NCBI GenBank assembly: GCA_905250025.1
Contig: CAJNOJ010000027.1
Span: forward strand, 434,001 to 498,000
Length of the DNA stretch: 64,000 bases
Reading direction: 5' to 3'
Source: Adineta ricciae
Lineage: Eukaryota > Rotifera > Eurotatoria > Adinetida > Adinetidae
The notes under the pieces were generated by a model. The model had not been told where the DNA came from, made no database searches, and saw nothing but the letters and a program-made list of their open reading frames with translations. The first letter of the stretch is position 1. Every line of letters begins with the position of its first letter. The position numbers and the translations under genes are program-made. Positions 11,474-14,610 of the stretch are shown here, piece after piece.

Positions 11474-12322
11474 TCATGCAAGTAATCCTTCTTTGACTTT
11501 TGTTGATTCGTCTTTGCCTTTGAGTAATTCAATTAATTTCAATGCAAAAGCCATAGTTGTCGCCGGTCCTTGAGATGTAACAATATGATACTCTCTTCCT
11601 TCAGCATCTACAAGACGATAAACATTTTGTTTTTCTAAGGTGTCTAACTCAAGTATTGAATTCAAACCTGCTGCTGTTTGCTTACTATGGCAAACAACTT
11701 GATCAGGAGCTTCGAGTTTGTACGGTTCACCATCAATAAATTCTTTACGAACACTTGGATAACATGTTATTGTATGTTTATGGTTGACTCCGATCTTATG
11801 AGCTAGTAATGCTCGTGGTCCAGCGCAAATAGCAGCAACAATTTTTCCATCCTCATAATGTTTCGTCAGAATTTGACCAACTTCAGTGTTGGCAGCCATT
11901 GCCTTTGATCCTAGATAAGTTCAAACAAATGTTTACTAACCTACTCGGAACTCTTTCACAATTAACAACATCTGTTCTTCAAGAGCGAAGACCTATAGAA
12001 GTTACCACTGTCTATAGGCCATTAAAGATCTCTACTCACCGTCATTTCCACCAGGGATTACGACACAATCGTATTGGTTAGTCTTTACATCATCAAGCAC
12101 CTTGTCTGGCAAGACGCGAACGTTTCGACTGCATTTCAAGGCATCTTGTCCATTTTTTTCAATGGAAACAACATCAACATCGATCTCGGCACGTCGAAGA
12201 ACTAGAAAACAAGTACAAGATTTTCTGTGAAATTGTCTCTATTCCAACTGACCATCGACAGTGGTGACCGTCTCAATTTCTTCACTTCCATTAGCAATGA
12301 AGACTAACGCCTTTTTTGTCAT
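11474..12322 (-). CDS. DJ-1/PARK7-like protein, downstream copy
   Basis: Three exons on the minus strand encode about 190 residues, the normal DJ-1 length. The DJ-1 active site is intact: Glu17 in NGSEEIETV and the reactive Cys106 in AAICAGP, at the nucleophile elbow. PGGNDG and the C-terminal TSQGPATTMAFAL are also typical. DJ-1 proteins are dimeric cysteine-based redox sensors with reported glyoxalase/deglycase and chaperone activities, so the likely role is protection from oxidative and carbonyl stress. The ATG at 12322 lies directly after a CTAG splice acceptor, and the stop of the upstream DJ-1 copy is only 98 nt away on the same strand. This suggests co-transcription (see findings). Confidence 0.93.
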
Positions 12323-12420
12323 CTAGAACGCATGAATAATATACATTGCTGGAATATTATAAACTAGCATGTTAAACAATAAAAAGAAAGGAGAATGTTG
12401 GGAATTCTTTGTTTTCTCTT

Positions 12421-13171
12421 TCAGAGAAGCATTTCTTCACGAATTTTCTTCACTTTCGATGATCCATCGAGAATTTCGACAATTTTCAACGCAAATGCGA
12501 ATGCTGTTCCGGGTCCTTGACTAGTTATCATATGCCGTTCACCATCGGCTGTTTTCAATTCACAATGATGCACCGGTTGATCAACAATCTTGGAAAACAA
12601 AGAACTTGATTTAAAAAGAAGCATTTCTTTGAACTACTCATTTACATTATAGTCTGTTTTCAGATCGTTTTGACATTCAGGATAAGCAGTAATCGTAGCA
12701 TTTTTTAGACCGATTTTATGTGATTGAAATACTATTGGACCTGGAGAAGAGGACGAAATGTGAACAAGAAAGAATCTATTTTGACTTTACCAGCACAGAT
12801 GGCAGCAACAAGCTTTCCCTTTTCGTAATGTTGCTGAAGAAGATTTCCAACAGCTAGATTTTTTGCCATGGCTTCTGAGCCCTTCTCACCACCGGGAACA
12901 ACAACTACATCATATGTATCATCCGTTGACAATTCATTAATAGATATATCTGGAACGATGACAGTATGTTGAGCACATTTCAATGCTTCACGATTCGCTT
13001 CAATGGATGTAATAGTTACTTTGATGCCAGCACGACGAAGAACCTGACAAACATGAAGAAATATACTTGGCAAACATGTATTTCAATATCGTTTACATCA
13101 ACCGTAATGACAACTTCACTTTCTTCACTGCCATTGGCTAATAATAGTAAAGCTTTTTTAGAACCAAACAT
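12421..13171 (-). CDS. DJ-1/PARK7-like protein, upstream copy
   Basis: Four exons on the minus strand. Start ATG 13171 opens [19 protein letters not shown]. The active-site residues are Glu19 and Cys108 in AAICAG, split by a phase-1 intron immediately after the cysteine motif. The C-terminal exon (from about 12612) carries [13 protein letters not shown]. It differs from the downstream copy at many positions and is slightly shorter between the middle and last exons, so the duplication is not recent. The exon breaks at VDV/LRR are nearly the same as in the downstream copy, which supports tandem duplication of one ancestral gene. Role as for the DJ-1 family: a cytosolic stress-response protein with a redox-active cysteine. 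Confidence 0.92.
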
Positions 13172-13884
13172 AGTTACTTTAATATTGCAGCAGGTTCAAC
13201 CGACCGATAATAAAAGACTATACCAGTCGGCCAGTTGAGAAAGCAACAAGACAGAAAAACGATGACTCATCCTATCAACCAATCGCGAGCAAGCACCTCG
13301 CGCCCCTCCAAAAAACGTCCGATGACTTTCAAAACTTCATAATCACATCCGTTACTGTATAGGTATATGTACATCTTCGTTTAATATCACACATCGTATA
13401 CATGTGAGAATCAAGTCAATCCAAATTGAAATATAGAATTTAATTTCTTACGTAAGATAAATAGTATCATGTAATGTATTTACATGTACCGTATAAACCG
13501 AAGAATGTGAAAAGATCTTATCTTTGTCAAGTGAATATCTCAGTAGAAACATCACTCGTATTGTATGAATAATTTGACATAGTGCGCAAACAATCATGTC
13601 ATAATTTACTTCGAGCTTTGTACTCTTTCTTTCTTTCCTTTCTTATCCGTCTTAAATTTTTAACTGCTTGACATGTTTTTACTTATAACGAGCAGAAAGT
13701 AGAATTTCACTTCAATATTTATTTTTTTAATTTTACTAACAACACAAAAAAAGAATAAAACAGCTGGAATAAAAAAAAGAAATCATCTTGCACAGACAAA
13801 CGGAAATAGCATAAATGTATTTCTATCTGAGAATAATATATTTATATGTATGTATAATGCAGACTGATTGATATAGTTGACACT
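13172..13884. other. Intergenic, no gene seen
   Basis: Upstream region of the DJ-1 pair and 3' region of the Grg1-like gene. AT-rich, with no reading frame of note. Confidence 0.5.
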
Positions 13885-14513
13885 TTAGATAGCTTCTTTG
13901 TGTGCGGCAGCTTGAGCTTTGTGAGATTTCTCTTCAATCTTGTCTCCAACAGCTGAAATACCAGCGCCGATACGTTCGCCAATGGTGTTATCCGAATTTT
14001 TGGCTTGTTCTTTGTGTCCTTCGTACGATGCAGCACTTGTTGCTTCTAGAATTTGCAAATGAATTCGGTAAATAATCGATCGATGAATCCATAGGTTTCA
14101 ATTTACATACCATGAACTTTCTCAGCAACATAGTTGTACGCATTAGAGATGGTATCACCAATTTGACCGATCACACCTCGTTCTTCGGCAGCTTCTTTGT
14201 GAGCTTCTTTCTTAGCTTCATGACCTTTTTCTTCGACTAAAAATACATCATATCCAATGAAATTTCACGTCTAATAAGTAACACAATGAAGTCCTACCTT
14301 TGTCTTTAACAGCATCAATACCATGACCGATGCGGCTACCGGCTGAGAGGTTGTCATTTTTAGCAGCTTCTTTGTTTGCTTCGTATGAAGCACCACTTGA
14401 TACTTCTAGAAACAAAATATAACAATTTATTTACCATTCGTCCATATGTTAACGTTCTAACTACCTTTGACTTTTTCTGATACGGCGTTGGCGGCGTCTT
14501 TAACGTTTTGCAT
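13885..14513 (-). CDS. Grg1-like (glucose-repressible/clock-controlled type) protein, two tandem units
   Basis: Four exons (14465-14513, 14298-14405, 14111-14236, 13885-14045), all joined in phase 1, encode about 147 residues. The protein is hydrophilic, Ala/Lys/Glu-rich and Cys- and Trp-free. It consists of two copies of a roughly 70-residue unit (about 1-69 and 78-147). Each runs: a short helix ending SEKV or AEKV, then GASYEANKEAAK or AASYEGHKEQAK, then RIGHGIDAVKDK or RIGAGISAVGDK, then a HKEA end. This pattern is that of fungal Grg1/CCG-1 proteins, small stress- and starvation-induced proteins normally made of one unit. A LEA-like protein is the alternative; composition and amphipathic-helix character fit either. 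A TATA-like box lies about 90 nt upstream. Likely role: desiccation or starvation stress, by analogy only. Confidence 0.78.
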
Positions 14514-14602: not shown

Positions 14603-14610
14603 TATTTATA
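14603..14610 (-). promoter_or_regulatory. TATA box of the Grg1-like gene
   Basis: TATAAATA on the minus strand, about 90 nt before the ATG at 14513. Spacing is compatible with a short 5'UTR. Confidence 0.45.

Follow-up and report, generated by a model that had tools for sequence, protein, structure and literature searches.

The stretch of DNA analysed here, 64,000 nucleotides of contig CAJNOJ010000027.1 of the bdelloid rotifer Adineta ricciae (called the window below), carries at positions 13885 to 14513 a gene for a protein with two Grg1 units. The evidence suggests that the gene is functional and belongs, as a two-unit form, to the Grg1 family (PF11034), that its units were doubled before the bdelloid genome duplication, and that the product serves as a stress-induced helical protectant; we put the probability of this combined reading somewhat above one half (about 0.57). 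Bdelloids are known for surviving drying. A preliminary description of the locus had assigned the family, and the assignment proved right: a Pfam-A search with the 147-residue product returned Grg1 with an E-value of 1.2e-44 and 150.8 bits, in two stretches (curated cut-off 25 bits). A gapless alignment of the two units (residues 1-69 and 79-147) gave 37 identical positions out of 69, compared with 19 for the best self-match in 1000 composition-preserving shuffles. The claim that the gene contains two copies of the unit is borne out by both results.

Domain assignment

Six other Grg1 genes of the same genome, scanned as spliced proteins, matched PF11034 with 74-159 bits. The whole-protein scan thus comprised seven genes, and three further genes (C1b, C33 and C2) exceeded the PF11034 cut-off at exon level. 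The sole other family listed for the window protein was DAHP_snth_FXD (E 0.083, under its cut-off). Weak matches to YtxH, again below the cut-off, were found for C159, C5, C20, C39 and a linker peptide (E 0.0092-0.17), and a scorpion antimicrobial model matched the linker peptide at E 0.0056, also below its cut-off. HSP9_HSP12 (PF04119) matched C1a at E 0.28 and the C159 linker peptide at E 0.11, neither significant, and was not listed for the window protein.

A group 3 late embryogenesis abundant (LEA) protein or an apolipoprotein-like protein could resemble Grg1 in composition and amphipathic helix, and C5 matches an apolipoprotein family weakly, at E 0.0083 and with 16.3 bits where the cut-off is 90. 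This identity is contradicted by the Pfam results, with Grg1 scores of 74-159 bits against a cut-off of 25 in all seven genes scanned whole, and was rejected on that basis; we consider it extremely improbable. No LEA family appeared at E<=1 in Pfam-A for the window protein, the six other genes or one linker peptide, in agreement with the earlier placement of the protein outside the known LEA families.

Gene model

The gene lies on the minus strand, with its ATG at 14513 and the stop codon ending at 13885, and encodes 147 amino acids (aa) in four exons:

14465..14513, minus strand: exon 1, start codon and residues 1-16 of Grg1 unit 1; 49 nt in all four homologous copies
14406..14464, minus strand: intron 1, 59 bp, GT-AG, phase 1; equivalent to intron 3
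14298..14405, minus strand: exon 2, core of unit 1; phase 1-1 exon
14237..14297, minus strand: intron 2, 61 bp, GT-AG, phase 1; without counterpart in unit 2
14111..14236, minus strand: exon 3, end of unit 1 (to about 14187), linker (about 14186-14160) and start of unit 2 (from about 14159)
14046..14110, minus strand: intron 3, 65 bp, GT-AG, phase 1; same aligned codon and phase as intron 1
13885..14045, minus strand: exon 4, remainder of Grg1 unit 2 and stop codon

The inner limits of exon 3 were computed from the unit limits of the self-alignment. At the level of sequence, the predicted four-exon model was confirmed by comparison of homologous copies, and the coordinates given in the preliminary description, with three phase 1 GT-AG introns, were exact. 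Exon lengths of 49, 108, 126 and 161 nt recur in all four homologous copies, and intron lengths vary across them. In every one of the four pairs compared the exons were better conserved than the introns; between ohnologs the identities were 80% for exons and 59-65% for introns. A chance open frame was ruled out by the shuffles, by the ratio of non-synonymous to synonymous substitution (dN/dS, see below) and by the existence of four homologous copies.

Genomic context and selection

In the assembly examined (130.5 Mb, 1033 contigs) the intact two-unit gene is present at four collinear places: C27 (the window), C1, C33 and C50. Collinearity was compared over the first 40,000 bases of the window. 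Window positions 1-33,854 align with C1 in long blocks of 93-94% identity, the last block of 479 bases, which reaches the edge of the C1 stretch compared, having 80%. C33 and C50 are collinear with the window from about 2.0 to 31.5 kb at 66-80% identity (blocks of at least 100 bases). A talin gene, found in pieces at 19.8-27.2 kb, lies about 5 kb from the Grg1 gene and within the collinear stretch. This is the pattern of alleles and ohnologs described for bdelloid rotifers. Contamination was ruled out by the collinear quartet and the nearby talin gene, and the animal host named in the preliminary description is supported.

Synonymous divergence (dS) was 0.08 and 0.22 in the two allele pairs of the quartet and about 1.4 between its ohnologs. 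For comparison, the available part of PMC5916493 gives mean synonymous distances (KS) of 0.135 and 1.267 and a G+C content of 35.6% for A. ricciae, and 0.05, 0.61 and 30.8% for Adineta vaga; the G+C content of the window is 35.9%. Base composition and divergence thus fit A. ricciae. The two allele pairs had dN/dS values of 0.11 and 0.04, and three comparisons between ohnologs gave 0.058-0.063. The two-unit gene is under purifying selection. Since the quartet has a common exon structure and an ohnolog dN/dS of about 0.06, the two-unit form predates the ohnolog split; the internal doubling is the older event.

The Grg1 family in the genome

The Pfam profile found at least 16 Grg1 exon matches in the assembly, from which at least ten genes were modelled, and a search with the C159 protein gave at least 24 matches at E<=0.1, all within the ten modelled genes and with no new locus; these exon and gene counts are lower bounds. 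The genes fall into the following types:

C27, C1b, C50 and C33: the quartet, two-unit, 147 aa each
C159: two units with extra linker exons, 174 aa; repeated linker VETVKEKA[AS]EAYNYVA on phase-2 exons
C5 and C2: shortened first unit, 139 aa; a linker like that of C159 and the second unit, unit 1 apparently without the phase 1-1 middle exon
C1a, C20 and C39: single-unit, 71 aa each

Introns measure 48-73 bp across the ten genes. The C159 gene (locus L009, 2400-3550) contains a duplicated phase 2-2 linker exon (VETVKEKASEAYNYVA), and together with the C5 gene (locus L010, 2080-3100) it illustrates apparent exon gain and loss inside one family.

Intron positions and the exon-pair proposal

The preliminary description had explained the two units by tandem duplication of an ancestral two-exon gene, with introns interrupting equivalent places in each unit. 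For introns 1 and 3 the equivalence was found: intron 1 (EKVK|E in unit 1) and intron 3 (EKVH|E in unit 2) share an identical aligned codon and phase. When three introns were placed at random, an exact match of this kind between the units arose in only 0.7% of the placements (933 of 132,478). For intron 2 it was not found. This intron (AVKDK|V) falls late in unit 1, and the matching AVGDKI of unit 2 is uninterrupted inside exon 4. Since nothing in unit 2 corresponds to intron 2, the gene as it stands does not consist of one exon pair present twice, and a simple exon-pair duplication was ruled out; either intron loss in unit 2 or intron gain in unit 1 must be added to the duplication history. 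The paralogues point the same way, as whole phase-matched exons have apparently been gained or lost among them, which weighs against the exon-pair account. Their second-half introns occupy three places, at codons equivalent to 45 (C159), 50 (C1a) and 53 (quartet), all in phase 1.

Doubling or fusion

Two different histories can be considered for the presence of two units in one chain. One ancestral unit may have been doubled inside a single reading frame before the bdelloid genome duplication; the paralogues would then have diverged by gain or loss of introns and by addition or removal of phase-matched exons. Alternatively, two different single-unit Grg1 paralogues may have fused, or later conversion may have produced a mosaic, and the common intron would then be an old intron of the family. 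The second history draws on the single-unit genes C1a, C20 and C39, which are present in the same genome. The first-half intron of C20 and C39 is placed one nucleotide earlier than the shared site, in phase 0, and because of this proximity the intron may predate the doubling. The motif NT.GER[IV]GAG is common to unit 2 of the quartet, C20 and C39, and after the first-half intron unit 2 of C33 shares 33 of 53 positions with C39 and 28 of 53 with unit 2 of C159. The part before that intron speaks against fusion, since there the quartet's unit 2 agrees with unit 2 of C159 in 10 of 14 positions and with C20/C39 in 7 of 16; the match to its own unit 1 is 6 of 16. The trees of the units are also unfavourable to fusion. 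Second units are joined with 61% support in the protein tree and with 78% in the nucleotide tree, where the group also holds the single-unit C1a, and neither tree places unit 2 with C20 and C39. With sequences this short the branching of these trees is not firm, and the nearest relatives differ between the first and the second half of the unit.

A doubling also agrees with the part of unit 1 after the first-half intron, in which the quartet (C27 or C33) is closest to unit 1 of C159 among the genes outside the quartet (36-37 of 53). Two comparisons run counter to it. Beyond the intron, the quartet's unit 2 has 25 and 28 of 53 positions in common with unit 2 of C159, 31 and 34 with its own unit 1, and 26 and 33 with C39. 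The first part of unit 1 of C159 shares only 3 and 5 of 16 positions with unit 1 of the quartet. A single doubling before these genes parted appears to be the simplest reading of this mixed sequence evidence, and a fusion or mosaic origin is quite possible, although we do not favour it.

Protein properties and possible function

The window protein contains no Trp, Cys or Pro, has 25% Lys plus Glu and 8.8% Gly, and its grand average of hydropathy (GRAVY) is -0.85; over the ten Grg1 genes the GRAVY ranges from -0.71 to -0.87. Hydrophilins are defined by a glycine content above 6% and a hydrophilicity index above 1 (GRAVY below -1). The window protein has the glycine but not the hydrophilicity of a hydrophilin. 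Helical amphipathicity at 98 degrees was calculated for six of the ten genes. The window protein exceeded 300 of 300 shuffles (z 4.2), as did C50, C159 and C5, and the single-unit C1a and C20 exceeded 295 and 298 of 300. AlphaFold predicted one helix for exon 4 alone, with a mean predicted local distance difference test (pLDDT) score of 87.6 in the best of five models.

In view of these properties a role as stress-induced helical protectant is most likely, as far as composition and modelling can suggest. A Grg1 protein of this type would be induced by stress and would be very polar and flexible in water. On crowding or drying it could fold into long amphipathic helices that coat membranes and proteins, and two units per chain would offer a longer helix surface. 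We infer both the helix formation on drying and the protection.

The published data on A. vaga are relevant here. According to the available part of a 2024 study (PMC10809525), A. vaga has eight Grg1 genes, and six of these were over-expressed after rehydration, with high transcripts-per-million values. Five of the six were also over-expressed at entry into desiccation, and one belonged to the response shared with radiation. The same text credits Boschetti et al. 2011 with the over-expression of Grg1 in A. ricciae entering desiccation.

A different possibility is that the protein acts in general starvation physiology, as a regulator or surface component, rather than as a drying protectant. The family name and the fungal literature on glucose repression, light and conidia, in the parts available, lend themselves to such a role, and the A. 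vaga gene in the radiation-shared response would fit it as well. The over-expression of six of the eight A. vaga genes after rehydration and the polar composition with its amphipathic helix argue against it, and we regard it as somewhat unlikely. Several observations nevertheless count against a protectant. One A. vaga Grg1 gene was not over-expressed and was high in hydrated controls (PMC10809525, in the part available). Dormant conidia of Aspergillus fumigatus carry Grg1 on their surface, a finding that may indicate a different role (available part of PMC7426169). The other four AlphaFold models had pLDDT values of 71-75, and the prediction used a single exon and no alignment; sequences rich in Lys, Glu and Ala are in any case readily predicted as helix. 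A six-member profile searched against the PDB at E<=1 hit only a designed protein at E 0.21 and one chain of an ATP synthase at E 0.95, neither convincing. The words grg1 and glucose were absent from the main text of an A. vaga spaceflight paper (PMC12220480), and a paper on foreign genes in A. ricciae (PMC3499245) has none of the words grg, glucose and ccg in its main text.

Relation to other proteins and origin of the family

Fungal Grg1 is generally a short single-unit protein of about 70 aa, induced by starvation, stress or the clock. The genes described here match the same profile family as fungal Grg1/CCG-1 (PF11034), and the single-unit members, with 71 aa, are similar in size to the 69-aa Grg1 of A. 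fumigatus (PMC7426169, available part). What sets the genes described here apart is the presence of two units per chain in the 147-aa window protein, an architectural variant of the profile family, together with linker exons in paralogues and an animal genome as host. The A. vaga and A. ricciae genes belong to the same family; eight are annotated in A. vaga, compared with the ten genes of the present models. The available text of PMC10809525 does not describe how many units or which exons the A. vaga genes have.

Group 3 LEA proteins are polar, rich in Ala, Lys and Glu, and form amphipathic helices. The window protein is likewise polar and rich in these residues, with an amphipathic helix signal at 98 degrees, but the Grg1 genes here have no LEA profile match. 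An exon-by-exon scan of the genome for LEA_4 (PF02987) gave zero matches, from which absence of LEA_4 cannot be concluded because the 14 control genomes were equally silent. LEA proteins have been reported in A. vaga (PMC10809525, available part). Yeast Hsp12 (HSP9_HSP12, PF04119) is a small, intrinsically disordered stress protein that acts together with trehalose in severe desiccation, according to the available part of PMC6054528; the Grg1 proteins are also small stress proteins, but their PF04119 matches are insignificant.

For A. vaga the best BLAST matches of Grg1 are fungal, and horizontal gene transfer from fungi was proposed (PMC10809525, available part). We infer a fungal origin for the bdelloid genes, against which it must be noted that the published pipeline did not call the A. 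vaga genes horizontally transferred, as far as the available text of the same study goes. Grg1 could instead be an old eukaryotic family that was kept in bdelloids and fungi and lost elsewhere. The pipeline result is compatible with this, and so are the spliceosomal introns, the ten genes and the quartet synteny, which indicate long residence. Given the fungal best matches, we find such a history rather unlikely. PF11034 was silent in 14 control genomes, which says nothing about fungi. Pattern scans of viral contigs (221 matches) and of prokaryote species genomes (68 and 593 matches) confirmed no Grg1 relative, and such scans with short peptide patterns can miss relatives.

The presence of Grg1 in bdelloids, its over-expression around drying and its possible fungal origin are already in print (available part of PMC10809525), the only study linking Grg1 with rotifers that was found in the open-licence literature. 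No description of a two-unit Grg1 was found among the titles and abstract starts listed from that literature, so the two-unit and mosaic architecture may be the new part. Because the family itself is in print, the gain consists of architectural detail and testable constructs. A broader scenario, which we offer tentatively and consider unlikely in its full form, is that a fungal single-unit stress gene, after entering an ancestral bdelloid, was converted into a modular animal protectant family. Introns would have been inserted at new sites (three phase 1 sites in the second half). Duplication or loss of phase-matched exons would then have determined how many helical units a protein has, and the two-unit form would have become fixed ahead of the genome duplication and been retained under strong selection in all four copies. 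With unit number, linker and introns varying between paralogues of one genome, the family offers a natural experiment on the conversion of a possibly foreign gene into an animal one and on the importance of helix length for protection.

Promoter motifs and neighbouring genes

Nine motif patterns were scanned in the 500 bp upstream of the ten Grg1 genes, which represent seven independent promoters. A TATA-like box lies 74-97 bp before the start codon in five of the seven, compared with 2.8% of random chunks. ACGTG/CACGT occurs 17 times in the seven promoters (the palindrome was counted twice, in the background too), a sum reached in 0.04% of random draws. These figures are post hoc among nine motifs, with a mixed coding background, and no conclusion rests on them. 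The element in the window is:

14604..14610, minus strand: TATA-box-like TATAAAT, 97 bp upstream of the start codon; consensus match only

Directly downstream of the Grg1 gene are two tandem DJ-1/PfpI genes (11477-13195, minus strand). The pair is also present in the allelic copy on C1, but a search at E<=1e-5 did not find it in the 40 kb of C33 or of C50 that are collinear with the window. Further away in the window are two ordinary neighbours, a piece of an amino acid permease (PF13520; 44662-45240, minus strand) and a piece of a ligand-gated ion channel (PF00060; 49214-49867, plus strand).
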